Below, piece after piece: positions 13,101-60,839 of a DNA stretch of 64,000 nt; position 1 is the first letter of the stretch, and each line of letters opens with the position of its first letter. The position numbers and the translations under genes were made by a program. This DNA is from Lathyrus oleraceus (lineage: Eukaryota > Streptophyta > Magnoliopsida > Fabales > Fabaceae): positions 464,621,027-464,685,026 of the forward strand of contig NC_066581.1 in NCBI RefSeq assembly GCF_024323335.1, given 5' to 3'. The notes beneath the pieces were generated by a model, which saw only the letters and a program-made list of their open reading frames with translations, ran no database searches and was not told the origin of the DNA.

Positions 13101-13624
13101 CTAACAAGAACATCAAGAAGATTATTCAGAAGATGGTTGTTACGTACAAAGATTGGCATGAGATGATGTCGTTTGCTTTACATGGCTATCGTACATCTGT
13201 TCGCACTTCAACAGGGGCAACCCCTTTCTCCCTTGTATATGGCATGGAGGTTGTGCTCCCCATAGAGGTCGAGATCCCATCAATGAGAGTCTTGATGGAA
13301 GCCAAGTTAACTGAGGCTGAATGGGTTCAGAGTCATTATGACCAACTGAATTTGATTGAAGAAGCGATTAAATGCCATGTTCCATGGCCACTTATATCAG
13401 AAAAGGATGAAGAAAGCCTTTGATAAGAAGGTCAAGCCTCGTGTGGCTCGAGAAGGTAACCTCGTGCTCAAGAAAGTCTTGTCTTTCACACCCAATTCCA
13501 GGGGAAAGTGGACTCCAAACTATGAAGGTCCATATGTTGTTAAGAGAGCCTTTTCAAGCGGTGCTTTGTTGCTTACAACTATGGATGGGGAGGATTTCAC
13601 TCGTCCTGTGAATTCAGATGCAGT
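10186..13624 (+). pseudogene. Element A RT - RNase H - aRNase H - integrase
   Basis: Order: linker to VKQKLRRTHPDMAVKIKEE; RT with CVDYRDLNKAS and active site VYVDDM (about 10999); first RNase H ending near YYLSKKCTDFESRYS; second, archaeal-type RNase H from about 11920 (VFDGAVN, then DVYGNSALV, then HIPRDENRMADAL); integrase with zinc finger GHAMAKK...CHKCQ and catalytic blocks WGIDMIG, IIDNGSN and GAVEAAN. In-frame stops: TAG near 10922, TGA near 11579, TAG near 11594, TAG near 12053. There is also a frameshift near 13356 in the C-terminal region. The frame continues to NSDAV at 13624, where element B interrupts it. Dual RNase H places it in the Tat/Ogre group. Nonfunctional. Confidence 0.88.
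13620..13624. repeat. Target site duplication of element B (GCAGT), left copy
   Basis: GCAGT here is repeated at 38415-38419, immediately outside B's two LTR ends. Removing B and one copy rejoins element A's integrase frame. Confidence 0.9.
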
Positions 13625-14993: not shown

Positions 14994-15000
14994 TGATTTT
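14994..15000 (-). promoter_or_regulatory. TATA box, element B 3' LTR
   Basis: Reverse complement TATAAAT, about 410 bp from the LTR start. Equivalent site in the 5' LTR is 37981-37987, extended by the preceding base. Confidence 0.5.
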
Positions 15001-15409
15001 TGTGGACCTGTGGGCTCAAATGAGAGAGGTCCAAGTCCAAGATTTTTTCTTTTATTTATTTATTTATTTATTTTTGTTTTCCGTTTTCTTTTTCCTTTTT
15101 TTTCGTTTTTTTTTCAAAACACGTGGGCTTCGCCTAGCGAGCATGGCAGCTCATGAACAAACCTTTGCTCCTTCAAGATTAATGTTTTGACTGACGAATA
15201 GACCCCTGTTGGAAGTAACTCAAGTCTTTCCCTTGTGTTGACTGATCATCTAAATAGAGCCCACAAAGTGTCCTGGATGATGTTCAAGATTCTTGGATCC
15301 GATTCCGATTGACATGATGAAATGTTAAATGACCTAAAAATGAATGCATGCATAAGGGGTAAAGCGTATGCTTCCAGGAAAAATGAAGGGTAAATTTTGG
15401 GGTATTACA

Positions 15410-15426
15410 GCTGCCCCTATTCAATC
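15410..15426 (-). promoter_or_regulatory. Polypurine tract of element B
   Basis: Sense strand GATTGAATAGGGGCAGC directly abuts the 3' LTR start TGTAATACC. Element D has GAATAGGGGCAAC in the same place. It is the expected plus-strand priming site. Confidence 0.75.
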
Positions 15427-17461
15427 AACTAGAGACCTGGAAAGAAGATAACAGCGGCTTTCGTGCTTTCGAGGTATCAAGGGATTGAATACAATATAAG
15501 CCCGAAAATTTGCACTGAAGTGAAGTGAAGTAACAATGCCTGTCAGAATCGGCAAAGAGGTGGTCTTGAAAGAAGAATCCGTCTGGTACGGTGAGAGTCA
15601 GTCTGAATACCGAAAAAGAATGTTAACCTGGATACAAAAATAAATGGTAACACAGAAATAACGATGGCCTGAATGCCGCTCATCAGTCTGAATACCGAAA
15701 AATACTTCGATCTAAACATCGGGAGATATGAGATTATTAATATCGGTCTGAACACCGAGAGGCTGGCCTGAATGCCACAAGTTGCGTCGACCTGAACGTC
15801 GGAACTTCTTCGATCTGAACATCGGAAAACTGGCCTGAATGCCACAAGTTGCATCGACCTGAACATCGGAAACTTCTTCGATCTGAACATCGGAAAATTG
15901 GCCTGAATGCCACAAGTTGCATTGACCTGAACGTCGGAAACTTCTTCGATCTGACATCGGAAAACTGGCCTGAACGCCACAAGTTGCATCGACCTGAACG
16001 TCGGAAACTTATTTGATCTGAACATCGGAAAACTGGCCTGAACGCCACAAGTTGCATCGACCTGAACGTCGGAAACTTCTTCGATCTGAACATCAGAAAA
16101 CTGGCCTGAACGCCACTTCGGTCTGAATACCGGAAACTTCATGCCTGTCAGCATCGGCAGAAATACGGAACGATAATAGAGGCGGCGTGTGGGCCAATGA
16201 GACTTGCTGGGGATAACAAAGGTAAGTCATGAAGAATCTTCAGTCTGAGTACTGGAAACAACTTCTGGCTTATCACTTGGGATACCGAGAATGTTTTATG
16301 CTTACATGCGTATGTTTGAATTTTTCAATGGCGTAATGCTCCATGAAAATGGAAATGCTACGCAATTTGCAATGCAATATGATTCTACATGCAGGGATGT
16401 GAAATGCTGGGTAGAATGCCAAGCTGAGGCAAGGGGATCTGCTGGGGAAATGATCACCATCTTCTGGACCCTGACAAGGCTGATGGAGATGCATAGCGCA
16501 AAGAATTCTATGGGGAAATAACCCGCCACACGGTGTTCTAGCAATGACGAAATACCGAGATTCTAACTGGGGAGAGAACGACACTGAAAACCTGTTGTTG
16601 GGGAAAACGATAGTGGTTCTGGCAACCACGATTTGCGAGAGATGACTCAGCAGGGGAAGCAAACACCGATACGGTACCGAGGTTCTGCTTCAAGGAAAGA
16701 AACCATGGACCTGGCATTGGGATTATCGATCTGGCCACGAACTCTGAGGAGCAGCCGCTTCTGCTGGGAAGATACGGTCTGGCACTGTCAACTCCGCTGG
16801 GGGTATATAGTCTGACACTGTCAACTCTACTGGGAGTGTATAATCTGAAACCAACGCTTGGGGGGAGGTACAGTGGTGAGAACCTGCTAGGGATTGAAGA
16901 ATCCAACGCTCTGATCAGCTCTGCAGGGATAAGATACCGAATTCGTCTGTTGGCGGAAAACATTCACGATCATCTGCAGGGGATTTTAAGGAAATGCCCC
17001 GAGGGTACCTGTTCTGAATAGGCAATCCAAAGCACTTAAAATTTACTGCAATTTTAGATGTTTATTAAGTATGTACCTGTAAAGCTCTTATGTGTCATGA
17101 TGCAATGTTTATCAAAAAATTCGGACGTCATTTTTGCAAACAAAATAAAAAAATGAAAATGAAAATAGAGATATACTGAATAACATGATTTTATTGATTG
17201 AACGGCCTCTGAATAGGCATTTACATCAGGAAGCAATCCCTGGAAAGAGGTAATCACACAACAGATAAAAACAAACATTAATCTAATGGCAATGCGAAAT
17301 GGATTTCTATTGGGTTCCAATTCTGCTATGACTTGCTCGTGTTCAAGATCCTCCAGATGATCAGCTTTCTGAAAGAGTGATTGGACTATTTCCTATCCTT
17401 CAAAAGTTTCCATTCATTGACACGAGATGAGATTCAGAACTACTCAGAACGCAGTCATTCG
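15427..17461 (-). other. Element B 3' UTR
   Basis: Noncoding interval of about 2 kb between the integrase hairpin array and the polypurine tract. It holds the 68-bp tandem repeat (15740-16130). Between about 16200 and 16990 it has a dispersed motif reading TCCCCAG on the sense strand, about a dozen variants. A module at 17040-17330 (around TTTATCAAAAAATTCGGACG) is also present in element D at 51490-51730. Open frames across it, including a 203-codon one at 15543-16154, come from the repeats. Confidence 0.75.
15740..16130 (-). repeat. 68-bp tandem repeat in element B 3' UTR
   Basis: Five to six units of about 68 bp containing GGCCTGAATGCCACAAGTTGC and one or two variants of CGATCTGAACATCGG. 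The CTGAACRTCGG sub-motif recurs at about 20 bp inside each unit. Unit phase is broken at both edges by single copies of related motifs. Confidence 0.88.
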
Positions 17462-17481
17462 CTTAATCCCTAACTTTTGCC

Positions 17482-17670
17482 TGGATCGCCCTTTTCGGGT
17501 TTTCAATCCATCGGGATACCCATTTTTTCCTAAGTTGCCTTTTCAGGTTTTCAACTTACCGGGTGTACAATCTTTTCACTTTTAATCCCTAATTTTTGCC
17601 CGAACCTGTTTCATTTTCTTGGTTCGCCGGGATGCCCATTTTTGCCTGGACTACTCTTTTTATTGTCCAG
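17482..17670 (-). promoter_or_regulatory. Tandem hairpin array after integrase stop, element B (four hairpins)
   Basis: Sense (minus) order: CTGGAC/GTCCAG (17670-17646); CGAACC/GGTTCG (17626-17601); TAAGTTG/CAACTTA (17558-17531) with inner CCTGAAAAGG; TGGATTG/CGATCCA (17510-17482, one T-G wobble) with inner CCCGAAAAGGG. Each is followed by a run like CCAGGCAAAAATG. The array begins 11 bases after the stop codon at 17681. Equivalent arrays are at 38460-38610 (A) and 51876-51951 (D). Function unknown; the sense-strand wobble suggests an RNA structure. Confidence 0.65.
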
Positions 17671-17680
17671 CGGGTCTATT

Positions 17681-17766
17681 TCATGCGAAGTATTTTTTAA
17701 CTGCGTCTGAGTTCACCGGGGAATTGAAGTTTTCACCATCCATCGTTGCAAGCATTAAGGCCCCAC
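17681..17766 (-). pseudogene. Element B integrase C-terminal tail
   Basis: Reads GALMLATMDGENFNSPVNSD then AVKKYFA and a TGA stop at 17681. It is the end of the integrase frame at 25827-29220, separated by element C. Without C the join reads FDGGALML, as in the uninterrupted homologue. Confidence 0.88.
17762..17766. repeat. Target site duplication of element C (CCCAC), left copy
   Basis: CCCAC is repeated at 25827-25831 just outside the other LTR end. Confidence 0.93.
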
Positions 17767-19538
17767 TGTAACACCCTTCTAAATACCCCAAATATTTAAT
17801 TAAAACAACAGCATATAAATCAATATCAGAGTAATCATGCACCAAGGGTGTCACATAATACTTCACATAATTCACCGTAAAATCAGTCATGCTCATTATT
17901 TAATCCAACATAAACACTTCTTTAAAAATTCGCAGCGGATAGAAACATTCAACATCTGTAATATCTTAAAATTAACATTTATTCAACAAATAAAACATCC
18001 CGTCCCGATGTTACATCTATCAGAGCATGACCCACTAAAACCACTATAGACTTCAAGCACTAGCTTCTACTCAACTCACTGCTCGTTACCTGAAAAATAT
18101 AACTGTAAGGGTGAGTTCCTCAATCGATATAACAAATATTATAAATCATCATGTTATGTTAAGTAACTTTACACGTTAATCACCCACATCATATCATGCA
18201 TTCGGTAGCAGCATATTCAACTCACATCATATTCAAACACAACGTAAATGCAACTCAAATGAGACTCGACTCGTCATGCATGTGGTACCATTTGGAGTAA
18301 AACTCCCAACTTAAAATCATTGCCAGTTTAGTGGGCATCAAGGCATAAGCCTTCAACTTTCAACTTAAAATTTTTGCCAATCCAGGCCAACGTGGTGTGA
18401 GCAAAAGCCCCATAATTTTGCCAATCCAGGCCAACGTGGTGTGAGCAAAAGCCCCAACTTAATGCATATGAATGTATATGGCATGTACGACTTGAAAGTT
18501 CAACAACATAATAACAACGACTACATAACAGCTTTTTCAGCAACAACAACTTAAAAATCAACTTTGGCTCATCAGCCTACAACTCAGCATTTTCAACAAA
18601 ACAACTGATATTCAACTTTGGCTCATCAGCCTACAACTTAATATTTTCCACAAAAACAACTTATCAACATATTTGCATCAACATTTCACAACATAGACTC
18701 CACGAATTTATTTATCACAATTGGATACAATAGGCCAATCACCAATTACACTTACATCATAAAAATCAACCATTTTTACATACTGCAACAGTGTTAACCG
18801 GTTAACGCTATAGGTTAACCGGTTAACGCAGGAAAATTACACTTCCAGGCAAAACGCAACAGTGTTAACCGGTTAACGCTATAGGTTAACCGGTTAACGC
18901 AGGCAAAACTCAACATTTTTCACAATTTATAACAGTGTTAACCGGTTAACACCCTGGGTTAACCGGTTAACGCAGGCGAAACAGCAGTTCCTGCGCTAAC
19001 ACAAGGCAGAATGCAGAGTTTCCGCATTTTCCGCCGTTGGAGGACTTCCGGACCTCCGATTCAACTTCCGTAAAAAGCTGTACGTCCAGAAATTCACAAT
19101 ACACTCAAATACAGATTCAATTACAACTTATACACAACATATCCAACACAACTTCTCAGTATTCAACAATCCCAATTAGGGTCAATTCAACGGTTTCTCA
19201 CTACCCATGACATGTTAATCTATAATACCCATTAAACGACGATAAACCCCCCTTACCTTAACAATCCGGCAACTCTTCGAGCTTCAAGCTTTTCCGTTCT
19301 CCAACCTTTGCTCTACAGCTCTTTGCCCTTTTCCTCTTCTCTGCAGCTTCTCAGTTTTCACGTAAAAACCTTTTCCAAAAATGAAAACCTTTTCTCTTAT
19401 TCCACTTATATATTTTCCAATAATAATTATTATTCCAAAATAATAATAATAATCCAATAATTCAATTTATTTAATTAAATTATTAAATATATTATTAACT
19501 TAATTAAATAATTCTTTTACTTTATTTGGGGTGTTACA
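17767..19538 (-). repeat. Element C 3' LTR
   Basis: 1772 bp; minus strand TGTAACACCCC at 19538 to GGGTGTTACA at 17767. TATATAAG lies at 19405-19412 (minus). It contains a duplicated 40-bp piece (GCCAATCCAGGCCAACGTGG at about 18374 and 18419), a duplicated CAACTTTGGCTCATCAGCC piece, and six 14-bp palindromes at 18793-18971. A 170-bp AT-rich segment precedes the TATA box. Confidence 0.95.
18793..18971. repeat. Six copies of palindrome GTTAACCGGTTAAC, element C 3' LTR
   Basis: Perfect 14-bp palindromes at 18793, 18814, 18864, 18885, 18937 and 18958. They form three pairs with start-to-start spacing of 21 bp within a pair; each pair is introduced by CAGT and followed by CGCAGG. They lie downstream of the TATA box in LTR orientation. 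The 5' LTR has the same six at 25080-25258. Possible transcription-factor dimer sites (core GGTTAA resembles the plant GT element) or RNA/DNA foldbacks; unproven. Confidence 0.9.
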
Positions 19539-19551
19539 ACTCTCCCCCACT
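19539..19551 (-). promoter_or_regulatory. Polypurine tract of element C
   Basis: Sense strand AGTGGGGGAGAGT abuts the 3' LTR start TGTAACACC. It is preceded by CGAGGACGAAAACTC, a frequent end of chromovirus 3' UTRs. Confidence 0.9.
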
Positions 19552-19580
19552 AAAAGAGTTTTCGTCCTCGAAAACATACC

Positions 19581-22500
19581 TCAAACAAATAACTCTGGAT
19601 AGGACTCCTTCATCTGACTCTCCAGTTCCCAAGTCACATTGCCACCTGCTGGTCCTCCCCAAGCTACCTTCACCAAGGCAATCTCTTTACCCCGCAACTG
19701 CTTCAACTCTCGATCCTCGATCCTCATAGGTGATGTTTCAACAGTCAGGTTATCTCTCACCTGTACATCATCTACTTGGACTACATGCGACGGATCATGA
19801 ATGTACCTCCTCAACTGAGACACATGAAAAACCTCATGCAAATTCGCAAGTGACGGCGGTAAAGCGACACGATAGGCTACCTCTCCTATCCTCTCTAAAA
19901 CTTGATAAGGACCAATAAATCGAGGTGTCAACTTCTTCGACTTCAAAGCCCGACCAACACCTGTTATCGGAGTAACACGAAGAAACACATGATTTCCCTC
20001 TTGAAACTCAAGTGACGTCCTCCTCTTGTCATGATAACTCTTCTGACGACTCTGAGCCATCCTCATCTTCTCCTGAATCATCTTAATCTTTTCTGTAGTT
20101 TGTTGAACAATTTCCGGTCCGACCATAGCACTCTCACCGGACTCACACCAACATAACGGTGTCCGACATCTCCTACCATACAAAGCTTCAAACGGCGCCA
20201 TACCAATGCTCGAATGAAAACTATTGTTGTAGGTAAACTCAATCAAAGGTAAATAACAATCCCAACTACCTCCCTTTTCCAAAACACAAGCTCTCAAAAG
20301 ATCCTCTAATGACTGAATCGTCCTCTCAGTCTGACCATCAGTCTGCGGATGATATGCAGAACTCAATCTCAGCTTAGTTCCCAAAGCCTTCTGCAAACCT
20401 TCCCAGAACTTCGATGTAAATCTAGGATCTCTGTCCGAAACAATATTAGACGGAATTCCATGCAAACTTACAATCTTCTCAATATACAACTCAGCCAATT
20501 TTTCTAACGGATAATCCATTCTAATCGGAATGAAATGAGCCGACTTTGTCAATCTGTCAACAATCACCCAAATAGCTTCAAAATTCTTAATTGTCCTCGG
20601 TAAACCAGAAACAAAATCCATACTAATACTATCCCACTTCCACTCTGGAATAGCCAACGGTTGCATTAGCCCAGACGGCTTCTGATGCTCAATCTTTGAC
20701 TTCTGACAAGTCAAACAAGAATAAACAAAGCTCGCGATTTCTCTTTTCATTCCCGGCCACCAAAATAACTTCTTCAAATCATGATACATCTTCGTGGCTC
20801 CAGGATGAATACTCAACCCACTACGATGTCCTTCCTCAAGAATACTCTTCTTAAGCTCGGTAACATCCGGAATACACACCCGACTACCAAACTTCAAAAT
20901 ACCATTCTCATCAACTCTGAATTCGCCACCTTGACCTTGATTCACTAGAGTCAACTTATCAACCAAAAGCATATCAGATTTCTGACCCTCTCTGATCTCA
21001 TCCAGAATACCACTTGTCAACTTCAACATTCCCAATTTAACACTATTGTGAGTACTCTCACACACCAAACTCAAGTCTCTAAACTGCTCAATCAAATCCA
21101 GTTCCTTAACCATTAACATAGACATATGTAATGATTTCCGACTCAATGCATCAGCCACTACGTTTGCTTTACCCGGATGGTAATTCAAACCAAAGTCATA
21201 ATCCTTTAGAAACTCTAACCATCTTCTCTGTCTCATATTCAGCTCTTTCTGATCAAACAAATACTTTAAACTTTTATGGTCACTGAAAACCTCAAATCTT
21301 GACCCGTACAAGTAATGTCTCCATAACTTCAGAACAAACACCACAGCTGCCAACTCTAAATCATGCGTCGGATAGTTCCTCTCATGAACCCTCAGCTGTC
21401 TTGAAGCATAAGCTATAACCTGCTTATTCTGCATCAACACGCCACCCAAACCCAACAATGAAGCATCACAGTAAACCTCAAATGGTTCCGACGGACTCGG
21501 TAATATCAGAATATGAGCAGTAGTCAACCTCCTCTTTAGCTCTTGGAAACCTTCTTCACATTTTGAGTCCCAAACAAACGCTTGCCCCTTTCTAGTCAAC
21601 ATCGTCAATGGTAACGCCAACTTAGAAAATCCCTCAATGAACTTCCTATAATAACCAGCCAAACCAAGAAAACTTCGAATCTCAGCAACAGACTTCGGAG
21701 CTTCCCACTTAGATACCGCTTTTATCTTAGAAGGATCAACAGCCACACCACCTCTTGAAATCACATGACCAAGAAAACTTACCTCCCATAACCAAAATTC
21801 GCACTTGGACAATTTAGCAAATAACTTCTTTTCTCGTAGGACTTCTAAAACCACTCTCAAATGCTCAGCATGCTCTTCTTCAGATTTCGAATACACCAAA
21901 ATATCATCAATAAACACCACAACAAACTTGTCTAGGTACGGATGGAAAATCCTATTCATATACTCCATAAATACTCCAGGTGCATTAGTCACACCAAAAG
22001 GCATTACAGAATACTCATAATGTCCATACCTTGTTCTGAAAGCAGTCTTCTGAATATCCTCTGTTTTCACACGGATCTGATGATACCCAGATCTCAAATC
22101 TATTTTACTGAACACACTTGCACCAACCAACTGATCCATCAAATCATCAATCCTCGGCAAAGGATACCGATTTTTGATCGTCACTTTATTCAGTTGCCTG
22201 TAGTCCACACACAACCTCATAGTACCTTCTTTCTTCTTAACCAATAGCACTGGTGCACCCCACGGTGACACACTCGGACGAATAAATTTCTTATCCAACA
22301 GATCTTCCAACTGACTCTTCAATTCAGTTAACTCAACAACAGACATACGGTACGGAGCCATCGATATCGGCCTAGTACCAGGTACCAAGTCAATAGAGAA
22401 CTCCACTTCACGCTCTGGCGGCAATTCATTCACTTCTTCCGGAAACACATCAGGAAAATCACACACCACTGCTAGATCGCCAATCACCAGTTTATCTTTA

Positions 22501-23939
22501 GCCTCCAAAGTCGCTAACAACATAAATAACTCTGCCCCATCTGCTACTTCCTCATCCACTTGTCTCGCTGATAGAAACAAACTCTTTCCTTCCTCACTCT
22601 CAGGAAATATCACAGTCTTATCAAAACAATTGATAGAAACTCGGTTAAACACCAACCAGTTCATACCCAGAATAACATCAATCTGCACTAGTGGAAGACA
22701 CACTAGGTCCATCCTAAAGTCCCTACCAAAAATACTCAAAGGACAATTTAAACAAACCGAAGTAGTAGTCACTGAACCCTTCGCAGGAGTATCAATTACC
22801 ATACTACCAAACATCTCAGATATCTCTAACTTAAGTTTCACAGCACAATCCAAAGATATAAAGGAATGAGTCGCACCTGTGTCAATAATAGCTACAAGAG
22901 GAAAGCCATTAATATAACACGTACCTCGGATCAAACGATCATCTGCAGAAGTCTCAGAACCCGATAAAGCAAAGACCTTGCCTCCTGACTGATTCCCTTT
23001 CTTCGGCTTCTGACACTGACTTCCAATATGCCCTTCTTCTCCGCAATTAAAACAAATCACTTCCTTGTGCTTGCAATCGGCTATTGCATGACCAATCTTA
23101 CCACAGCGAAAACACCTCTTTACTTCAGCAGTGCATACATTACTCTTATGACCAGCTTGACCACACTTGAAGCAAACTATACCAGTAGGAGCACCTCCCC
23201 CACTAGCTCTCTGAGCCGGAGCAGCTCTTTGTCTCCCTTTTCCAGCTGGAACATCATACGGCTTGCCACGGTTTTGATGTTGCTTGCCTCTGCAGTCACT
23301 GACAATCTTGTAATGAGCATTATTGTCTTCTTCAAATATCCTGCAGCTATCAACCAAATCAGTAAAAATGCGTATCTTCTGATACCCAACAACCTTCTTA
23401 ATTTCAGAGCGCAATCCGTTCTCAAACTTGATGCACTTTGAAAATTCAGCACCAGCACCAGTGTAATGAGGATAAAATTTGGACAGCTCTACAAATTTCG
23501 CAGCATAATCAGTGACAGACATGTTTCCTTGCTTCAGCTCAAGGAATTCAATTTCCTTCTTACCACGGACATCTTCCGGATAATACTTCCTCAGAAATTC
23601 CCTACGGAATACATCCCAAGTAATGACTTCACCTGCCACGGTCAACCTCTCGTGAGTCTCTAGCCACCAGTCATCAGCTTCGACTGCTAGCATGTGAGTA
23701 CCATACCGAACCTTCTGAGCTGGAGTGCAATCCATAACACGGAAGATTCTCTCAATCTCTTTCAACCATCCCAAGGCTGCATCTGGATCATGCTTCCCTT
23801 TAAACACCGGCGGATTCTCTCTCTGAAAAGTCGCCAAGCTACGTGACCCAGCATCACCACCAGCATTTGGCAAGTTCTGCACCGCTTGTGCCATTGCTTG
23901 CATTGCGGCAACCATTGCAGCGTCATTCCTTCCAGCCAT
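19581..23939 (-). CDS. Gag-Pol polyprotein of element C, 1452 aa
   Basis: A single open frame from the ATG at 23939, the first after the primer site, to TGA at 19581. Domains: capsid-type gag (about 35-215); three CCHC knuckles (256-269 [14 protein letters not shown], 276-289, 296-309); aspartic protease with [10 protein letters not shown] (DTGA at 353-356); reverse transcriptase (about 540-720) with CVDYRQLNK and active site FIDDI (676-680); RNase H (about 819-935, VYCDAS and later DALSRK); integrase with zinc-binding H1038/H1045 and C1075/C1078 and the triad D1108 (SMDFV), D1169 (VSDRD), E1205 (QTERT); GPY/F module (FIGPYQV, about 1341); and C-terminal chromodomain (about 1400-1452, [15 protein letters not shown] to TWELE...YPELFV). 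Length and order fit a complete chromovirus. No stop or frameshift and all catalytic residues present, so it is probably functional. The chromodomain is expected to guide integration to heterochromatin. Confidence 0.96.
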
Positions 23940-24037
23940 TTCAACTTATCAATACAACACAACTTAACGTTAGATTAATAACAATTACACAATTGTTAGA
24001 CAGTAACGACACGACAACTGGCCGGACAGACCGACCT

Positions 24038-24049
24038 GCTCTGATACCA
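24038..24049 (-). promoter_or_regulatory. Primer binding site of element C (initiator Met tRNA)
   Basis: Sense strand TGGTATCAGAGC, four bases after the 5' LTR end at 24054. It is the standard complement of the plant initiator methionine tRNA 3' end. The 98 bp between it and the gag ATG are leader. Confidence 0.93.
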
Positions 24050-25079
24050 CTAATGTAACACCCTTCTAAATACCCCAAATATTTAATTAAAACAACAGCA
24101 TATAAATCAATATCAGAGTAATCATGCACCAAGGGTGTCACATAATACTTCACATAATTCACCGTAAAATCAGTCATGCTCATTATTTAATCCAACATAA
24201 ACACTTCTTTAAAAATTCGCAGCGGATAGAAACATTCAACATCTGTAATATCTTAAAATTAACATTTATTCAACAAATAAAACATCCCGTCCCGATGTTA
24301 CATCTATCAGAGCATGACCCACTAAAACCACTCTAGACTTCAAGCACTAGCTTCTACTCAACTCACTGCTCGTTACCTGAAAAATATAACTGTAAGGGTG
24401 AGTTCCTCAATCGATATAACAAATATTATAAATCATCATGTTATGTTAAGTAACTTTACACGTTAATCACCCACATCATATCAGGCATTCGGTAGCAGCA
24501 TATTCAACTCACATCATATTCAAACACAACGTAAATGCAACTCAAATGAGACTCGACTCGTCATGCATGTCGTACCATTTGGAGTAAAACTCCCAACTTA
24601 AAATCATTGCCAGTTTAGTGGGCATCAAGGCATAAGCCTTCAACTTTCAACTTAAAATTTTTGCCAATCCAGGCCAACGTGGTGTGAGCAAAAGCCCCAT
24701 AATTTTGCCAATCCAGGCCAACGTGGTGTGAGCAAAAGCCCCAACTTAATGCATATGAATGTATATGGCATGTACGACTTGAAAGTTCAACAACATAATA
24801 ACAACGACAACATAACAGCTTTTTCAGCAACAACAACTTAAAAATCAACTTTGGCTCATCAGCCTACAACTCAGCATTTTCAACAAAACAACTGATATTC
24901 AACTTTGGCTCATCAGCCTACAACTTAATATTTTCCACAAAAACAACTTATCAACATATTTGCATCAACATTTCACAACATAGACTCCACGAATTTATTT
25001 ATCACAATTGGATACAATAGGCCAATCACCAATTACACTTACATCATAAAAATCAACCATTTTTACATACTGCAACAGT

Positions 25080-25258
25080 GTTAACCGGTTAACGCTATAG
25101 GTTAACCGGTTAACGCAGGAAAATTACACTTCCAGGCAAAACGCAACAGTGTTAACCGGTTAACGCTATAGGTTAACCGGTTAACGCAGGCAAAACTCAA
25201 CATTTTTCACAATTTATAACAGTGTTAACCGGTTAACACCCTGGGTTAACCGGTTAAC
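25080..25258. repeat. Six copies of palindrome GTTAACCGGTTAAC, element C 5' LTR
   Basis: Same six sites and spacing as in the 3' LTR, with no substitution in any of the twelve copies, although the LTRs differ elsewhere. Confidence 0.9.
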
Positions 25259-25692
25259 GCAGGCGAAACAGCAGCTCCTGCGCTAACACAAGGCAGAATG
25301 CAGAGTTTCCGCATTTTCCGCTGTTGGAGGACTTCCGGACCTCCGATTCAACTTCCGTAAAAAGCTGTACGTCCAGAAATTCACAATACACTCAAATACA
25401 GATTCAATTACAACTTATACACAACATATCCAACACAACTTCTCAGTATTCAACAATCCCAGTTAGGGTCAATTCAACGGTTTCTCACTACCCATGACAT
25501 GTTAATCTATAATACCCATTAAACGACGATAAACCCCCCTTACCTTAACAATCCGGCAACTCTTCGAGCTTCAAGCTTTTCCGTTCTCCAACCTTTGCTC
25601 TACAGCTCTTTGCCCTTTTCCTCTTCTCTGCAGCTTCTCAGTTTTCACGTAAAAACCTTTTCCAAAAAATGAAAACCTTTTCTCTTATTCCA

Positions 25693-25700
25693 CTTATATA
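25693..25700 (-). promoter_or_regulatory. TATA box of element C 5' LTR
   Basis: Reverse complement TATATAAG after an AT-rich upstream stretch; the likely promoter for genomic RNA. Confidence 0.65.
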
Positions 25701-25826
25701 TTTTCCAATAATAATTATTATTCCAAAATAATAATAATAATCCAATAATTCAATTTATTTAATTAAATTATTAAATATATTATTAACTTAATTAAATAAT
25801 TCTTTTACTTTATTTGGGGTGTTACA

Positions 25827-36621: not shown

Positions 36622-38414
36622 TGTCGCAACCTGAAAAATACAGTGTGCGAAAAAACAACCGGCGAAAGAAAATGACAGAAGAGTCGCCACCGTGTGTTAT
36701 TTATCCCAAAAAAGGGAAAGGAAACGCTCGAAGTAAACCTGAAAAGAGGAAATGAAGAGACAAGGTCTCGCAACCAAATCTTGGGTTCGGGAGTCGGTTA
36801 TGCGAAGGGAAGGTATTAGCACCCCTACGCATCCGTAGTACTCTACGGGATCCACTTTTGTAGTTCTTGTCTAAAGAGTGTGAGTTTTTGTTGTGCTGTT
36901 TACTAAAACAAGGGGTTAAATGAAAATGACTCGCGCGGATGTCGCATCCACTGCATACGTATCTCATCTGAATATGAGAATCAGAGTCTTCGTAGCTCGG
37001 CTGACCTATGGGTTGGGGGGATGTGTGCTCACTAAGACATCGCGTCTTATGCCTACGTATCTCATCTGGAATGAGAATCAGAGCAAGTCGTAGTTCGGCT
37101 AACTACGGGGTTAAGGATTATGTTTTGGGGGCGGAAGACGTTACTACGCAATCTACCGGATGCTCAACCTTTGGAGACTTACTCACCTGTAGTAGAAGGA
37201 GTAAACGTGTGTTTAGGAGAAGAAAAATCAATGAAGGGTTAGGGTTTGGGATGCTCATGCAAAAAGGCAGTCCTTGACGAAGGAACCATGCTACCTGCGG
37301 GGATACGAACACATACAAAACAAACATGTATAAAGTAAATGTGCCAACAAGGCAATCAGAATAAATCTCCCAAATGGTATCCCACAAGAAAAGTGGAATA
37401 TCCAGCGAGCTATCCCTGCAAAAGTCATGTGAGCCTTCACAAAAACTCAACAAAAGGGTTAGTGAAACAAGATAAGGATTAGGATAAAACATGCTATGAC
37501 AAACGTAAGTCAGATTAGAGCAAAACAATATGGTTTTTCATGGATAACAGTATGGTTTCAGAAACCTCAAACTCTGTGGCATACACTTCAGAAATTAAAC
37601 GATTAAGCATTCAAGGCATTATTTATACATTCATACATAATTATGAACCCGTGGGAAAAAACCTACTGAAATTCCTCCATCATACCTCAAACATTCAGAG
37701 TATTCAACTTCAAAGCACAAAGGTAATGGGAATAAGGGCAAACCTGATTGGAGAGATCGGTTGAAATCAAATGGCACGGCTGGATTTGCAAACCAATGTT
37801 AGGGTTTGCTTGAGCTGAAAGTGTGTGAGTCAGAATGAACCTTTCAGAGTTGCCTGGAGGTTGCTCTGAACTCTGTTAGCTCTTCTCTCACTATCTTTTT
37901 CCCTAGGGTTCTTCTCTCACTATCTTTTTCCCAGACAGGGTAATAGGAATAAAATCCCTTTTGTTTCACTGAAACTCTGAATTTATAACCTGATTTTTGT
38001 GGACCTGTGGGCTCAAATGAGAGAGGTCCAAGTTCAAGATTTTTTCTTTTATTTATTTATTTATTTGTTTTTTTTCGTTTTTTTTTTGTTTTTTTTTCTT
38101 TTTTTTCTTTTTTTTTTGTTTTCCGTTTTTTTTTCAAAACACGTGGGCTTCGCCTAGCGAGCATGACAGCTTATGAACAAATCTTTGCTCCTTCAAGATT
38201 AACGTTTTGACTGACGAATAGACCCCTGTTGGAAGTAACTCAAGTCTTTCCCTTGTGTTGACTGATCATCTAAATAGAGCCCACAAAGTGTCCGATTCCG
38301 ATTGACATGATGAAATGCAATATGAAATGTTAAATGACCTAAAAATGAATGCATGCATAAGGGGTAAAGCGTATGCTTCCAGGAAAAATGAAGGGTAAAT
38401 TTTGGGGTATTACA
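36622..38414 (-). repeat. Element B 5' LTR (1793 bp)
   Basis: Same family as 13625-15409 in the same direction; flanked on the right by the second GCAGT (38415-38419). The differences from the 3' LTR include a 27-bp and a 12-bp indel near the LTR start and a longer T-rich tract (38040-38135). CTACG hairpins are at about 36955-37095. Confidence 0.92.
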
Positions 38415-38438
38415 GCAGTCAAGAAATACTTCGCCTAA
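38415..38438 (+). pseudogene. Element A integrase last codons
   Basis: After the GCAGT duplication the frame reads AVKKYFA then TAA (38436-38438). It continues the integrase interrupted at 13624; the same AVKKYFA ends element B's integrase. Confidence 0.88.
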
Positions 38439-38459
38439 AAATAAAAACAGAATAGCTCG

Positions 38460-38610
38460 CTAAGTTGAAAACCCGAAAGGGCGGCTTAGGCAAAAATGAG
38501 CGTCTCGGTGGATTGAAAACCCGAAAGGGCGGTCCAGGAAAAAGTTAGAGACATTAAAAATGAATGTACATATCCCGCTAGATTGAGTACGTCACCCTGG
38601 GGCAATCTAG
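38460..38610 (+). promoter_or_regulatory. Tandem hairpin array after integrase stop, element A (three hairpins)
   Basis: Hairpin 1: CTAAGTTG (38460-38467) with CGGCTTAG (38482-38489), two T-G wobbles, inner CCCGAAAGGG. Hairpin 2: TGGATTG (38509-38515) with CGGTCCA (38530-38536), two T-G wobbles, inner CCCGAAAGGG. Hairpin 3: CTAGATTG (38578-38585) with CAATCTAG (38603-38610), perfect. Hairpins 1 and 3 are followed by GGCAAAAAT. The inner GAAA loop is a stable RNA tetraloop. Confidence 0.65.
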
Positions 38611-40264
38611 GCAAAAATTAGGGATTTTTGGCAAGTAACTGCATCCTGACAAGACTTTGTTCTGCAACTGTCTTTTGTCAAGGATTCTCGCTCAATCGTC
38701 ATCAACTGAAGCTTCAAATACAGTGGATTCAGAGTTGGTGGAGAAACGGTCATTATGTTCAATGTAGCCCTTTTCCATGTATATCACCAATTTCAAATTT
38801 GTAAAGATCCATTGGTCTCGCCATTTGCGGACTACCATTCTATTAATAAATTTGAACCTTTATCCAATTCTTTGCACTCTTACTTGTTTCTGTTTAACAA
38901 ATGTTTACATGTTTTAATTGATGAATATCATTGTTTTAAACAAATAAAGTTCTATAAACTATTTTAAACAAAATGAACATTCACATTGACTAAAAGGATA
39001 AATGGAATGTCCTCAGTGCTTTCCAAAGGACAGTATGATCATCAAAAGCATGAGATGAAAGCTCTCAGTAGAGTAAGCATGTGTTCCCTGCAGAGTTTTC
39101 TTTTAGACAGTTGTCTCCTCAGCAGGAAGTTTCCTAGGGCAATCGATGAAGGGTTTGTTTCCCTTTTCATCCCCAGCATGTCACGTGTTGACAAAGGATT
39201 CATTTCTGATTTCCTCAGCCAAGGCAGTTCCTTTAAGAATACTTGCAGTTTATCCCCAGTAGGGTTGCCTGATCCGAGTTTGATAATTTGTTATCCCTCT
39301 CAGTCTGAAGATTTCTTCTAGTATTGAGAGATGATGTGGAAGATATGTTGTTTCCTTACCCAATGGAGAAAATTGTTCTATCTCCCCTTTGGCAGAGGTT
39401 CCTCTCCAGCAGATAGAAGGGAATGTTTTGATTGATGTGTATCTGGTTGGTGTTTGTTCCCCATGGAATTTCACATGATTCCTTGATAAGTTCCCCAGTA
39501 GAATTTCTTCTACGGTGGATCTTACTGATATTCAGCCACCTATTCCTGAGGATTGATAGGAAGTCCCCGGCAGGTTCTTCTGCATCTTCCTTATGTCAGG
39601 ATTGTTGGCCCCTAGAAGACTCCTTCTGTGTAGATTTTGTTTCTTGCAGTTGGAAGTTGTGACTTTGCCTGTCCCTAGTTGTGATCGATGTATTCCTGTG
39701 TTTTATCATCCCCATCAGAGTTGAGTTCTCCTGTAGGCTTTGCCCTTCTTGTTGAGATGTTATACCAAACGTCCGTTCGTGATTCTTGGACCTGTTTGTG
39801 TTAGATATATCTGTCTGTCAGCATTAATCATACATAAATCATGCATATACACACATAATCATAGCATTCAGATATTCATGATGCATTTTTTGCCATATAT
39901 CTTTGATTGTTATCTCCTGCTATTGGTGAAATTTTCTTCCCCAGATAGATGTTTGTGCCTGATCTCTCCATATGGAGTCATCCTCATAGGCAGAAAGTGT
40001 CTACCTTTCCTTCTTTCTTCCCCACTGAGTTATGTCCTCGTGGATGATTATTATTTTAGTTTCCTCTCCAGTTATGTATCGGGATGGAATTACTCCCCTG
40101 AGATATATCCTCATTAGGTTGAGTCTCGTTTGATTGTGTTTTTCCAGTTTGTGCCAGGATCGACTCTCCCTTCTTGTTATCCCCTACAATTCCTTGTGGT
40201 TTAGTTGTTCAATTGCTTAGAAACCAGTAGATGTGCATATTTTCCCAACGATTTCTGTGGCCTT

Positions 40265-49836: not shown

Positions 49837-51850
49837 CAACTGTGAACCTGAACAGATGAAAGCAGCGGCTATCAGACTTTCAAGGTAAATAGGGATTGAA
49901 TACCAAAAGAACCAGAGAATTTGCACTCTGCAGGTGACGGATCAAGGAAAGCGGGGCCATTTACCGATGGTGTCTTCAAAACAAAATTGATATTTACCGA
50001 TATCAAAGAAAGCGGGGCCATTTACCGATGGCGGCTTCAAAACAGATTTGATATTTACTGATATCAAGGAAAGAGAGGCCATTTATCGATGGCGGCTTCA
50101 TAATAAATTTGATATTTACCGAGATCGAGGAAAGCGAGGCCATTTACCGATGGCGGCTTCACTGGGGAGGGAAGAGTGAAACAAGACCAGACATTTACCG
50201 ATGACTGGGATGGAACTCGATGTTTTACCGACATCGAACAAAGATGTTTATAAGTGAAACAAGGCCAGACATTTACTGATGACTGGGAAGGAACTCGATG
50301 TTTACCGACATCGAACAATGATGTTTACCGACACCGAACAATGAGGTTTACCGACACCAAAGAGAGAATACGCTTATGAAACGAAACCATTTACCGATGG
50401 CGAAAATGAAACACTCGATATTTACGGATAGCGAATCTGCTGGGGAATCTTAAACGACAAAACCATTTACCGATGGTTAAAAAGCGGTCGATGTTTACCG
50501 ACATCGAACAATGATGTTTACCGACACCAAAGAAAGGAAAGGACACACACGGGTGTTGACGGAACGATTTTTTGTAGACACCGTGAGAGACATACCATTT
50601 ACTGATGGCCAACGATTGGAATTCGACGTTTACCGACATTGAAAGATGATGTTTACCGACATAAAAGAAAAGCACAAACATTTACGGGGAATCAACACGA
50701 CACTTACCGATATCACAAGGATGATATTTACATATGTCAAAATAAGGAAGACACTTGCCGGGGACTAAACTGGGGAGAGAATCAGGCTTTCCTTTCACGG
50801 ACTGGTGAGAAAATAAATCTCACTGGGATTATCGATTCTGAATGTTGCCAAGAGCAACTGCTGCAAATGTGCTACACTGATGTTGAAAAATGATCTGTCT
50901 CTTCCGGAGATATGATCCAACCTGGATTAATACATGTATGCATATGTTTGAGTTTTCCATGGCGTAATGCTCCATACTGAATGGAAATGCTACGCGATTT
51001 GAGAATGTGAATGCAAATGATGATTACTACATGCAAGATGCAAAGGGAGGAATACTCCTGCTAGGAAAGCAAATGATCACTTTACTGAGCACACAATTCC
51101 TGATTCGATCTTCCAACTCTATGGGGAGATACAACAATTCTGCTGAGGATACTTATTAAACTGACATTCTCGGAACGGTAGAGAAACCAACTCAACTGGG
51201 GAGTCACTTGTTGGGAAACCACCAACCTCTCGACTATGCTGGGGAAACAAATTCTGAACTCGACTTAGACGACCCAACTTCTTACGTGACTGGACAGTGT
51301 TGAAACAACAGGGTCTTCCTTCGAACAAACTTTGGCTCATCTGCTTTAGCCATCAATCAAAGATAGTGACCTGCGAAACGGCAGTACATACATGCCTAGG
51401 GGATCGTATGGACAAAATATACTCAAGTGTACTCAACATTCAAAATGATTTTCAGATGTTTTATCTTTCCGCATGTCATTGTCTAGCCTTCATGTTTTTA
51501 GATGCAATGTTTATCAAAAATTCGGACGTTTTTTGCAAACAAAACAGTAAAATAAAAATAAAAGAGAGCAATTTGACTGAATAACGACTTTTATTGATTG
51601 AAAATGGCCTATAAAGGCAAATACATCAGGAAGCAATTCCTAGGAAGAGGTAATTGCGCCAAAAGAGAAAATAAACTATCCTATTGGCAATGTGAACACG
51701 ACATTCCACTATTTTCCAATTCTGTTATGACTCATAGATCTTCACTTTCCCCCAAATTCTTTGCTTTCTGAGAAGAGTGATTGGACCGATCATATCCTTC
51801 AAGATGGTAGACACTGAAACGCGATGAAGTACAAATAACTCAGACTGTAG
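49837..51850 (-). other. Element D 3' UTR
   Basis: About 2 kb noncoding. It holds the ATTTACCGATGG repeats (49960-50700), a stretch with sense-strand TCCCCAG variants (about 50780-51250) and a module at 51490-51730 (around TTATCAAAAATTCGGACG) conserved with B. No credible gene. Confidence 0.7.
49960..50700 (-). repeat. Tandem repeats in element D 3' UTR
   Basis: Units of about 60 bp built from CCATTTACCGATGGCGGCTTC and GATATTTACCGATATC, first regular (49960-50165) and then degenerate (to about 50700) with variants such as GATGTTTACCGACATC. Each sub-motif is itself a near-palindrome around TTTACCGA. Unrelated in sequence to the repeats at the same place in A and B. Confidence 0.85.
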
Positions 51851-51875
51851 TCTTCGCTTTAATCCCTCTTTTGCC

Positions 51876-51951
51876 TGGACCGCCTTTTTAGGTTTTCAAT
51901 CCACCGGGATACCCATTTTTGCCTAAGCCGCCTTTGCAGGTTTTCGACTTA
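51876..51951 (-). promoter_or_regulatory. Tandem hairpin array after integrase stop, element D (two hairpins)
   Basis: Sense hairpin 1: TAAGTCG (51951-51945) with CGGCTTA (51930-51924), one T-G wobble, inner CCTGCAAAGG. Hairpin 2: TGGATTG (51903-51897) with CGGTCCA (51882-51876), two T-G wobbles, inner CCTAAAAAGG. Both are followed by GGCAAAA. The array starts about 20 bases after the stop codon. Confidence 0.63.
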
Positions 51952-51970
51952 CCGGGTGTACATATTATTT

Positions 51971-52499
51971 TTATTCTTTATCCTTAGTTATAAGCATAAA
52001 GGCTCCACCAAAAAAGACCTTTTTAACAACATATGGACCTTCATAATTCAGAGTCCACTTGCCCCTGTTATCTGTACCGGGAGGAAGGATCCTCTTCAAA
52101 ACTAAGTCACTTATCTGATAGCTTCGAGGACGCACTTTCTGATCAAAGGCCTTCTTCATCCTCCTCTGATATAGTTGTCCGTGGCACACAACTGCTAATC
52201 TCTTTTCCTCAATTAAATTTAACTCATCAAACCTGGCTTGAACCCACTCAGCCTCGTCGAGTTTTACATCCATCATCACCCTCAAAGAGGGGATTTCAAC
52301 TTCTACTGGCAAGACTGCCTCCATGCCATACACAAGTGAAAACGGAGTTGCCCCGGTTGACGTACGCACTGAGGTACGATACCCATACAAAGCGAAAGGC
52401 AACATCTCATGCCAATCCTTGTACGTCACAACCATCTTTTGCACAATCTTCTTAATGTTCTTGTTTGCCGCCTCTACAGCACCATTCATCTTTGGTCTG
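51971..52499 (-). pseudogene. Element D integrase C-terminal part
   Basis: Continues the integrase core from PKMNGAVEAANKNIKKI through YRTSVRTSTGATPFSLVYG and EGPYVVKKVF, to a stop after KDKE (51971). The last 20 or so codons seen in A and B (ending AVKKYFA) are missing, so a deletion lies here. The part before PKMNG is across solo LTR S1. The residues encoded upstream of PKMNG at 52500-52534 belong to the LTR, not the protein. Confidence 0.88.
52495..52499. repeat. Target site duplication of solo LTR S1 (GTCTG), left copy
   Basis: GTCTG recurs at 57679-57683. Removing the LTR and one copy rejoins the integrase frame at SPYR/PKMNG. Confidence 0.93.
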
Positions 52500-57678: not shown

Positions 57679-60581
57679 GTCTGTAAGGAGAAGAATCGTG
57701 GTGTTCGATCTTAAAGTCTTTGCAAAGCTCTTTCATCATCTTGTTATTGAGATTCGAACCATTATCAGTGATGATTCTCTAAGGAACCCCATAACGACAA
57801 ATAATTTCTTTCTTAATGAATTGAGCAACCACTTGTCTGGTAACATTGGCATAGGAAGCTGCTTCCACCCACTTGGTAAAATAATCAATTGTGACTAGGA
57901 TGAAGCGGTGTCCATTAGAAGCAGTAGGTTCAATCTTTCCAATCATATTGATGCCCCACATCGCGAATGGCCAAGGAGAATTCATAATATTCAGAGGGTT
58001 TGGTGGTACATGCACTTTATCCGCATAGATCTGACATTTGTGGCACTTCCGAGCGTATTTAAAACAATCAGATTCCATGGTTATCCAGTAATAACCGACT
58101 CTTAAGAACTTCTCGGCCATTGCATGACCACCAACATGGGTACCGAAAGATCCCTCGTGTACTTCCTGCATTAACATGTCTGCTTCGTGTCTAACCACGC
58201 ATCTGAGCAGAACCATGTCAAAGTTCCTCTTGTACAACACATCATCCTTGTTCAAGTAAAAGCTTCCAGCTAGCCTTCTCAATGTCTTCTTGTCATTCTT
58301 TGACGCTCCTTCAGGATACTCTTGGCTTTTGAGGAAATTCTTAATATCATAAAACCACGGCTTCTCATCAATCACAGACTCGGCTGCAAACACATATGCA
58401 GGCCTCTCGAGTCGATTCACAGCAACATGTGGCACATGATTCTGCCAATGAACTTTAATCATGGAAGACAATGTGGCTAAGGCATCAGCGTTTTGATTTT
58501 CATCTCGAGGTACATGATACAACTTTATTGTCTTGAAGAAAGTCAGGATCCTTCTGGTGTAATCTCTATAAGGAATCAAATGCGGCTGATGAGTATTCCA
58601 GTCTCCATTGACTTGGTTAATCACTAGAGCAGAATCTCCATAAATGTCTATAGTTTTGATCCTTAGATCGATGGCTTCCTCAATCCCCATGATACAGGCC
58701 TCGTACTCAGCTTCGTTGTTGGTTACTTCAAAAGTCAATCTGGCAGAAAAAGGTATGTGTGCACCTTTAGGATTAATGAGTACTGCCCCAACACCATTTC
58801 CATTCACATTTACCGCCCCATCAAACATCAGTGTCCACTTGTCATTGGGATCCGGTCCTTCCTCGACAAGAGGCTCTTCACAATCTTTCATCTTTAAGTA
58901 CATGATATCTTCATCAGGGAATTCAAACATCATCGGTTGATAGTCATTAATTGGTTGCTCGGCAAGGTAATCAGACAGAATACTACCCTTGATGGCCTTT
59001 TGCGACGTGTACTGGATATCATACTCTGTCAAAATCATCTGCCAACGAGCCACTCATCCGGTAAGAGCCGGATTTTCAAAGATATACTTTACTGGGTCCA
59101 TCTTAGAAATCAACAAGGTAGTATGGTTCAACATATACTGTATTAGTCAGCGAGCAACCCATGCCAAAACGCAGCAAGTTTTCTCGAGCAGTGAAAATCT
59201 TGTTTCACAGTCGGTAAACTTTTTGCTAAGGTAGTATATTGCATGCTCTTTTCGACCAGACTCGTCATGCTGTCCCAATACACACCCCATCGAATTCTCT
59301 GTTACTGAAAGGTACATTATCAGAGGCCTCCCAGGAACTGGAGGTATAAGAATTGGAGGTTTCTGCAAATATTCTTTTATCTTATCAAAAGCTTTTTGAC
59401 AATCATTGTTCCACCTGATTGCTTGATCTTTTCTTAGCAATTTAAATATCGGTTCACACGTAGCAGTTAGGTGAGATATGAACCGTGCAATGTAGTTGAG
59501 CCTCCCTAAAAACCCACGAACCTGCTTTACCGTTCTTGGTTCAGGCATTTCTTGAATAGCTTTTACTTTCGCTAGATCAACCTCAATCACTTTCTTACTG
59601 ACAATGAAACCTAACAGCTTTCCAAATCTCACTCCAAACGTACACTTGTTTGGATTCAGCCACAGTTTGAACTTTCTCAATCTTTCGAACAACTTTTGCA
59701 AGTTTACCAAATGCTCCTCTTCTGTCTGAGACTTCGCAATCATATCATCCACGTACACTTCAATTTCTTTGTGCATCATGTCATGAAAGAGAGTCGTCAT
59801 AGCTCTTTGGTAGGTAGCACCGGCGTTCTTCAACCCAAATGGCATTACCTTATAACAGAACGTCCCCCAAGGTGTAATGAATGTCGTCTTCTCCATGTCT
59901 TCTGGCGCCATCTTGATCTGATTATTGCTAGAAAATCCATCCATGAAAGAGAAAACCGAGGACTGAGCAGTGTTATCGACCAATACATCAATGTGAGGTA
60001 ATGGGAAGTCATCTTTCGGACTGGCTCTATTTAAATCTCGGTAATCGACACACATCCTGACTTTACCATCCTTCTTTGGCACGGGTACGATGTTGGCCAC
60101 CCAAGGGGGATAAATGGTAACTGCTAGAAAACCTGCATCCAACTATTTCTGAACCTCCTCTTTGATCTTGACAGCCATATCAGGACTAGTTCTGCGAAGC
60201 TTCTGCTTTACCGAAGGACAATCTTCTCTGAGAGGTAGCCTGTGCAACACAATATCTGTATCCAAACCAGGCATATCTTGATACGACCATGCGAATACAT
60301 CCACATATTCTTGCAGTATTTCAATCAGCCCTCTCTTGACCTTTTCCTCTAAAGCAGCCCCTATCTTGATCTCTTTCTTTGCATCCTCAGTACCAAGGTT
60401 AATGACTTCCAACTCTTCCTGATGAGGTTGAATGACCCTTTCCTCCTGTTTCAATAGTCTGGCCAATTCTTTGGGGAGTTCACAATATTCTTCATTCTCC
60501 TCTTCGGCTTGGTAAATGGGATTATCAAAGTCATACTGAGCCATAACAGAACTGTTTTTAATGGAATCTGCAAGATCAATT
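57679..60581 (-). pseudogene. Element D RT - RNase H - aRNase H - integrase N-terminal part (exon 2)
   Basis: From the intron acceptor: IDLADSIKNSS, MAQYDFDNPIYQAEEE, then RT with CVDYRDLNRAS and YVDDM; RNase H YYLSKKFTDCETRFS; second RNase H LMFDGAVN, NNEAEYEAC, DIYGDSALV, HVPRDENQNADAL; integrase GHAMAEK...CHKCQ, WGINMIG (N where D is usual), ITDNGSN. Stops: TAG near 60143 (Gln codon), TGA near 59150 and TGA near 59054 (CGA-type), TAG near 57779. Continues across S1 at 52499. Closest relative in the window is element B. Confidence 0.88.
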
Positions 60582-60839
60582 CTGCACGAACGATGTTTCA
60601 TGCTTTATTTTAGAAAAGAGTTCAAGGAAGTCACAAAAAACAAAAAAACATTGCCATTTTTATTGTCTTGAAAATGAAAGTAAAAACAGAAAGACAGTGA
60701 GCACAAATTTGATTCCAAAACGTCCTTTATTGATGATAATCATTGAAAATTTAAAACATGATGTGGCCCTACAATGAACCACTACGCCTTGGGCAGAGCG
60801 CATGGTTTTCATGCAAAGTGAAAAATAAAAGAGAATTAC
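60582..60839 (-). other. Element D intron between gag and RT
   Basis: Donor GTAATT at 60839, acceptor TTCGTGCAG ending 60582; 258 bp. Joins TLHTK to IDLADS in frame. A second AG 14 bases further would break the frame. Confidence 0.72.

Follow-up and report, generated by a model that had tools for sequence, protein, structure and literature searches.

Does the row of hairpins that follows the integrase gene in Ogre-lineage retrotransposons form a conserved RNA structure, and if so, what would such a structure do for the element? The question arises from an initial annotation of the window (the whole 64,000-nt stretch of Lathyrus oleraceus DNA analysed here), in which arrays of two to four hairpins were assigned to three elements, A, B, and D, directly after the integrase stop codon. 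Ogre elements are a main cause of the large genomes of Fabeae. The genome searched comprises 3.80 Gb in 1,550 contigs.

Host elements and hairpin units

Nested LTR retrotransposons fill the window (Table 1). Element B is flanked by a GCAGT target-site duplication and was found to be inserted inside the integrase gene of A, where it splits the last integrase codons; this corrects the initial annotation. By self-comparison, C and D read as a single element interrupted at 52498/57679, with the stretch earlier named element D as its 3' part and the upstream part in 57679-62671. The protein domains of B are ordered RT_RNaseH, RVT_3, Integrase_H2C2, and rve. RVT_3 precedes Integrase_H2C2 in A and C too, and the D fragment by itself gave no domain match. 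According to the accessible part of one paper, Ogre is defined by an additional RNase H (aRH) that sits between the RNase H and integrase domains, a trait common to Retand (PMC6317226). This second RNase H was found in A, B, and C, as in Ogre (Ty3/gypsy, OTA, Tat). The same source describes an extra ORF upstream of gag, with a plant mobile domain in 57% of Ogres (PMC6317226); in A, an ORF upstream of gag (5586-6305, plus strand) matches DUF7745 (PF24924, 2.7e-31) and not the plant mobile domain. The Ogre-lineage copies of the window are decayed and their ORFs are separate. Nested in B is a Ty3/gypsy-type element (17767-25826, minus strand) with LTRs that are 99.5% identical and an uninterrupted 1454-codon frame. 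Tandem repeats of 103 nt lie at 628-1545 and others of 67-68 nt at 15751-16156, in the 3' region of B.

Table 1. Features of the hairpin arrays, closing helices, and host element B in the window
Feature	Position	Strand	Remarks
A unit 1	38454..38502	+	basal GCTC/GAGC, internal loop, middle CTAAGTTG/CGGCTTAG, apical CCC-GAAA-GGG
A unit 2	38501..38553	+	basal GTCTC/GAGAC, middle TGGATTG/CGGTCCA, apical CCC-GAAA-GGG
A unit 3	38571..38626	+	basal ATCCC/GGGAT, middle CTAGATTG/CAATCTAG; R1 E 1.8e-8, outside training set
B unit 1	17633..17677	-	R1 E 0.0013, outside training set
B unit 2	17584..17634	-	R1 E 2.1e-6, outside training set
B unit 3	17517..17566	-	in R1 model
B unit 4	17465..17518	-	in R1 model
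D unit 1	51910..51959	-	counterpart of B unit 3
D unit 2	51861..51911	-	counterpart of B unit 4
A closing helix, 5' arm (integrase codons)	13614..13624	+	pairing with 38638-38649 by eye; severed by the insertion of B
A integrase tail after the insertion	38415..38438	+	GCAGT target-site copy, codons VKKYFA, stop TAA 38436-38438
A closing helix, 3' arm (GGCAAGTA ACTGCA TC CTGA)	38630..38649	+	helix counted on related copies
B closing helix, 5' arm (CTCAG-A-CGCAGT ... TTCGC, integrase codons)	17685..17711	-	stop TGA 17681-17683
B closing helix, 3' arm (GCGAA..ACTGCG-TT-CTGAG)	17443..17462	-	pairs with B 5' arm
AATAAA after array, A	38845..38850	+	
AATAAA after array, B	17190..17195	-	
AATAAA after array, D	51590..51595	-	
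Element B	13625-38414	-	both LTRs present
LTRs of B	13625-15411 and about 36622-38414	-	95% identity over 1,813 aligned columns (self-comparison)

All nine hairpins of the initial annotation were found in place, and its description of arrays of two to four held, while the basal stems and a helix closing the array had been missed. Each unit consists of a basal stem of 4-5 bp, an internal loop, and a middle stem of 5-8 bp. The loop has 1-2 nt on its 5' side and GG(C/A)AAAA.. on its 3' side. It is A-rich and conserved, reads G(G)/GGCAAAAA(U), and lies above the basal stem in every unit. As had been noted for most hairpins, GGCAAAA follows seven of the nine; GGAAAA follows the other two. An AAAA bulge and a 3-bp apical stem are present in six of the nine, and the caps are GAAA, GAAAA, GCAA, or AAAA. 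Basal stems vary by element with their pairing kept: GCTC/GAGC and GTCTC/GAGAC in A, ACCC/GGGT and ATCCC/GGGAT in B and D, and in fetched copies also ACTC/GAGT (L026) and AGCC/GGCT (L084). Across the basal and middle stems of A, B, and D, 100 of 101 pairs are standard. Eight of these are G.U, all with the U on the 5' side, and the one remaining pair is A.C. D is without the integrase tail and the first two hairpins (51960-52005, minus strand), both of which are present in its relative L113. The stop codon in D is not the usual integrase stop, a further correction to the initial annotation.

A model, R1, was built on six of the window units. It recovers all nine, including the three left out (Table 1), and the next-best match in the window has an E of 1.9. 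When each 5' arm was paired with its own 3' arm, 60/60 middle-stem pairs formed, which was equalled by none of 20,000 arm permutations and exceeds chance. Folding energy alone is weak evidence, modest both for units and for whole regions. For seven units, 3 to 49 of 500 dinucleotide shuffles were at least as stable, with weaker results for unit 3 of A (170/500) and unit 1 of D (148/500), and for the three whole regions the counts were 26, 21, and 67 of 300. The antisense strand is less stable in seven of the nine units and in all three regions, and more stable for unit 3 of A and unit 1 of B. Chance palindromes were rejected as an explanation by the recovery of left-out units, the arm permutations, and the pairing in related copies.

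Covariation and the closing helix

Further analysis of related copies examined pairing and covariation. In 34 B-like copies, 97.5% of 2,210 base-pair cells were standard, against 19.6-47.2% when partners were slid, and 19 of 65 pairs were changed on both sides, against 1-3 in the slides. Their covariation score was 0.226, compared with 0.125 after shuffling, and was reached by 0/500 shuffles, a count that is not a probability because shuffles ignore relatedness; the number of further pair types was no higher than in shuffles (358/500). Slid partners keep the relatedness, yet the comparison is biased towards a structure that was read from a single row. The A-type set comprised 38 copies (39 reduced rows minus the B-type L041), with copies cut by other sequence kept (L014, L101, and the 3' end of L040). 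Here 94.8% of 2,391 cells were standard, against 26.3-47.0% in slides, and 63 cells were changed on both sides, against 27 after shuffling. Nine A-type pairs were changed on both sides, with a shuffled mean of 7.8 (147/500 shuffles reach 9). Among 72 distinct A-type rows without L041, 96.2% of cells were standard.

Near and distant copies were compared over 74 A-type loci, L041 among them. Near-identical copies (46 pairs, 95% or more) gave 0 double changes among 93, and pairs under 85% alike gave 4,507 among 21,547. The share of changes that keep the pair was equal in near and distant copies (54-57%). Single changes provide no evidence, because their share is about that expected from transitions alone (68 of 128). 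Without an imposed structure, RNAalifold on A8 gave 61 pairs, 16 of them with double changes. Its prediction includes all four middle stems, the two apical stems, the unit 4 basal stem, and the greater part of the closing helix. For the B-like copies, RNAalifold pairs some CCC/GGG basal arms across units; the partner register of these arms is ambiguous because those basal stems hardly vary. In A-type copies the basal stems differ from one another in sequence, and their pairing is local. On the sense strand, G.U exceeds A.C by 325:61 in A-type copies and 97:30 in B-like copies, in line with the suggestion that the sense strand folds as RNA, and the loop letters are conserved. Unconstrained tandem duplication was rejected, since double changes are kept across families. 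Within this genome, covariation was found in larger alignments, with some measures weaker than others; its absence there would have refuted the initial annotation.

Comparison of copies showed the array to be closed by a predicted helix. The integrase gene contributes its last ten codons (N-x-D-x-V-K-K-Y-F/Y-A), and their partners lie just downstream of the last unit. The whole is, as judged from its pairing, one multibranched RNA domain of roughly 240-270 nt that encloses three (A-type) or four (B-like) units. The N-x-D-x-V codons are paired first. Both lysine codons then fall in a bulge of 7-9 nt, after which pairing resumes over the Y-F/Y-A codons and ends either immediately before the stop or one base earlier. 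The minimum-energy fold of B joined the integrase end to the sequence after the array. In A, the TACTT and GCC of the tail pair with 38630-38637, and the same helix is intact in L022. Of 26 distinct 5' arms displayed, 21 give this helix as their best duplex. The displayed best duplex differed in L026, L071, L084, L088, and L099; L026 and L071 were missed because the 3' anchor of the script skipped arms that are present in the sequence, and in L084 the helix pairs partly only.

Changes in the codons were found to be mirrored downstream. TCAG/CTGA is replaced by GCAG/TTGC in L026, GCCG/TGGT in L030, and GCTG/CGGC in L031, with Ser and synonymous Ala codons. In place of GCAGT/ACTGC, L113 has GTAGT/ACTAC, with Val for Ala, and the L103 family has ATAGT/ACTAT, with Ile for Ala. 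Each of the integrase variants DAV, DVV, and DIV has its matching downstream change. The 5' arm of D has been lost; its 3' arm reads ACTAC, and therefore a GTAGT 5' arm is expected, which is what its relative L113 has. In the B-like copies, 6 of 11 pairs in the main helix and 2 of 5 in the stop-proximal helix were changed on both sides. A duplex test was made on 58 distinct sequences (106 loci were parsed, 67 of them with a full 60-nt 3' region). A copy's own 3' region binds better than those of other copies (mean -18.9 vs -14.6 kcal/mol; 0/5,000 permutations), and the duplex z was below -2 against shuffled 3' regions in 41/58. In only 9/58 did a copy's own 3' region rank first, alone or in a tie, because related copies share arms. 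A tree-based count, in which 3' arms were placed in only 20 of 47 loci, gave 2 double changes kept, 10 single changes kept, and 5 changes to broken pairs.

Codon variation was taken from the 56 in-frame copies usable out of 90 loci. Four-fold codons had a heterozygosity of 0.078 in the tail (4 codons) and 0.235 upstream (19 codons), and two-fold codons varied slightly less in the tail (0.141, 6 codons) than upstream (0.187, 15 codons). The freely varying A-type codons AAT/AAC and TTC/TTT lie outside the closing helix or at its bulged base. Contrary to a rule that only paired sites are conserved, the conserved lysine codons sit in the bulge. Taken together, the hairpin array and closing helix are almost certainly a real conserved RNA structure, on the evidence of comparative pairing, and the pairing looks as if it is maintained by selection.

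Two explanations bear directly on these observations. The units might be DNA palindromes that serve as recombination or template-switch sites and seed the variable tandem repeats known from the interval between pol and the 3' LTR. The units are indeed tandem, and the accessible part of one study describes the region between pol and the 3' LTR as hypervariable and as the source of most Lathyrus sativus satellites (PMC7004042). The excess of G.U over A.C would not be needed by a DNA cruciform, however, and the closing-helix arms are more than 200 nt apart and made of codons; together with the conserved loop letters, this makes the DNA explanation distinctly improbable. Because a stem overlaps the stop-proximal codons, a signal for stop-codon read-through or recoding may also be considered. 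Translation past the stop would end almost at once, at an in-frame AAA TAA in A and after six sense codons and a TAA in B, and such a signal was rejected in both elements; as a general function it is highly improbable.

Occurrence and downstream context

Exact matches to a codon pattern for the integrase tail DAVKKYFA, which contains no letters of the array, number 29,854 across the genome, against 0 for the reversed control. R1 units follow the stop in all 90 loci chosen by this tail (30/30 and 60/60), which are the first 90 of the first 100 matches listed (L013-L102) and all lie in the first 15 Mb of contig C1. The other refuting condition of the initial annotation, absence of the array from other Ogre elements of the same subfamilies, did not hold for these loci. 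A second integrase pattern, YGTEAV-[LIMF]-P, has 1,269 matches, and units were found in 22 of the first 30 loci. One of the other eight, L104, runs into other sequence. The R1 unit is absent from the remaining seven, which belong to a Tat-type lineage with the integrase end LRQYYS (L105, L106, L114, L117, L118, L121, and L132). After the integrase stop in the three LRQYYS copies printed (L105, L114, and L132), a GC-rich palindrome near CCACG-GGGAGA-CGTGG was observed.

In the reverse direction, 7/7 loci found by a hairpin word follow the integrase tail, as do 59/59 exact unit-2 words on C1:1-16.36 Mb (43 by position and 16 by tblastn). Within the sampled loci, the domain thus occupies a single site in a single lineage. 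The A-type unit 2 has 17,883 exact 20-mer copies in the genome. No coding-free element carrying the domain was found among the 59 unit-2 sites, which cover the A-type unit on C1:1-16.36 Mb. In viral contigs a hairpin word had 0 matches, and a search for integrase relatives gave only four short matches (34-44% identity) in the RNase H part, with none in a second search; prokaryote genome contigs contained no integrase relatives. A hairpin word matched one locus in genome contigs, L005, where the R1 matches are short and weak (14-28 nt, best E 0.015). Two local arrangements were also observed. L026, L027, and L028 (C1:1962557, 1970291, and 1978026) have the same array sequence at spacings of 7,734 and 7,735 nt, which looks like a tandem array of an Ogre-lineage segment of roughly 7.7 kb. 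In L143 (C1:10836532-10837032), a long AT dinucleotide run replaces the last codons between the integrase tail and the array.

A conserved AATAAA with TGTA upstream follows the array in A, B, and D. In 80 of the 90 loci the word lies 380-580 nt past the point where the tail motif begins, with distance peaks at 420-460 and 500-540 nt; four words of the same letters average 40. In B, the AATAAA is about 1.8 kb before the 3' LTR and a long region lies between them. These positions make AATAAA a possible candidate poly(A) site for a short pol message. The domain could then be a 3'-UTR element of pol mRNA that controls termination, stability, or localisation, where a shorter mRNA ends at the AATAAA some 200-270 nt past the array and read-through RNA reaches the 3' LTR. 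That the domain begins in the final codons and straddles the stop fits this function, as does the accessible account of barley BARE, in which translated and packaged RNAs form separate pools and the polyadenylated ones are without the R domain (PMC3735527). A-rich stretches raise the number of AATAAA-like words, however, as the control average shows, and three to four near-equal repeated units exceed the needs of termination. A 3'-UTR function is the main rival to the reading preferred below and is regarded as somewhat unlikely.

Proposed role and comparison with known systems

The preferred reading is that the domain is a cis-acting mark on genomic RNA for export and/or packaging, to which we assign a probability of roughly 0.45. 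In pea and Medicago, the intron of Ogre RNA is reported, in the accessible part of the source, to be removed from only part of the transcripts (PMC6317226). Unspliced genomic RNA must therefore exit the nucleus and be distinguished from message. An export or packaging mark is favoured by analogy, because animal LTR elements meet this need with folded RNA elements. Judged from its site in B, after pol and before the 3' LTR, the domain would lie in the full-length transcript. Its A-rich internal loops, repeated from unit to unit, would present a row of like docking sites for one protein, either a host RNA-export factor or the Gag of the element itself, and their likeness suggests that several copies of this protein would be bound side by side. 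Marked by the domain, full-length RNA that retains its intron would leave the nucleus and/or enter particles. Recruitment of an export receptor and binding of Gag are thus both putative functions, proposed from the layout of the loops.

The position of the closing helix allows a more specific proposal. Because it occupies the codons just before the stop, a ribosome cannot complete integrase without opening it, and closure would consequently mark RNA that is not being translated through pol. The domain may thus act as a translation-sensing switch, in which only RNA untranslated through pol would fold the whole domain, show its three or four like A-rich loops to a host or Gag protein, and commit to export or packaging, although this version is rather unlikely. 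Several points count against the export or packaging mark. Known packaging signals are usually located in the 5' leader. No coding-free carrier was found among the 59 places, though one would be expected of a free-standing signal if such derivatives exist, and the downstream AATAAA would fit the mRNA 3'-UTR role equally well. Since no unit was found in the LRQYYS lineage, the function is either not general or done otherwise.

Protection from 3'-to-5' or 5'-to-3' RNA decay, as by xrRNAs or 3'-end structures, would also make use of a compact multibranched fold directly after the coding region. Searches of Rfam 15 gave no match in the window at gathering score, a search of the A and B regions up to E = 1 also yielded nothing, and the local hairpins are only moderately stable, so that this function is improbable. 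None of the entries listed by full-text literature searches describes such a domain. These two results agree with the initial annotation, to which no described element of this kind was known.

According to the accessible part of a 2025 review, there are no direct studies of how plants export the RNA of LTR elements (PMC12786077), and a conserved domain at a fixed place behind a tail motif of 29,854 copies is a concrete object for this question. The RNA constraint in the integrase codons matters for how selection on these genes is read, and the copies provide a deeply sampled natural data set of compensatory mutation. The domain is present in thousands of copies; if the switch is real, one genome would contain tens of thousands of copies of it, and to our knowledge no element of the kind has been described before from plant LTR retrotransposons.

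Among known systems, retroviral Psi lies at the opposite RNA end from the Ogre-lineage domain. In the part of the MMTV account available, Psi consists of stem-loops held by long-range interactions (PMC11449360), and this arrangement resembles that of the domain. The tandem repeats of Tat/Ogre 3' UTRs (Macas et al. 2009, cited in PMC7004042 and PMC6317226) occupy the same interval between pol and the 3' LTR. As the accessible excerpts describe them, these repeats differ from element to element in both sequence and length and give rise to satellites, whereas the hairpin domain has conserved pairing, is fixed at the stop codon, and has three to four units in the copies seen. Retand elements, also of the Tat clade, have a long POL-3'LTR region after pol, which the available portion of the source describes as tandem repeats and antisense ORFs and which is mentioned there without hairpins, stems, or secondary structure (PMC11963269).

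The closest likeness is to RNA elements that export full-length transcripts. The MPMV CTE is such a structured cis-acting RNA in a retrovirus. CTE and RTE are multi-stem domains towards the 3' end, as is the Ogre-lineage domain. The accessible parts of the sources describe the mouse IAP RTE and MusD MTE as structured cis-acting RNAs that export the full-length RNA of LTR elements (PMC12786077, PMC3362945). The domain described here shares with them a structured, covarying RNA; unlike them, it occurs in a plant host, it is without a match to a described Rfam family, and a helix built with integrase codons surrounds its three to four similar units. In kind it belongs with the retroelement cis-acting RNAs; its new features are the arrangement of the units in tandem and the use of integrase codons for the helix.
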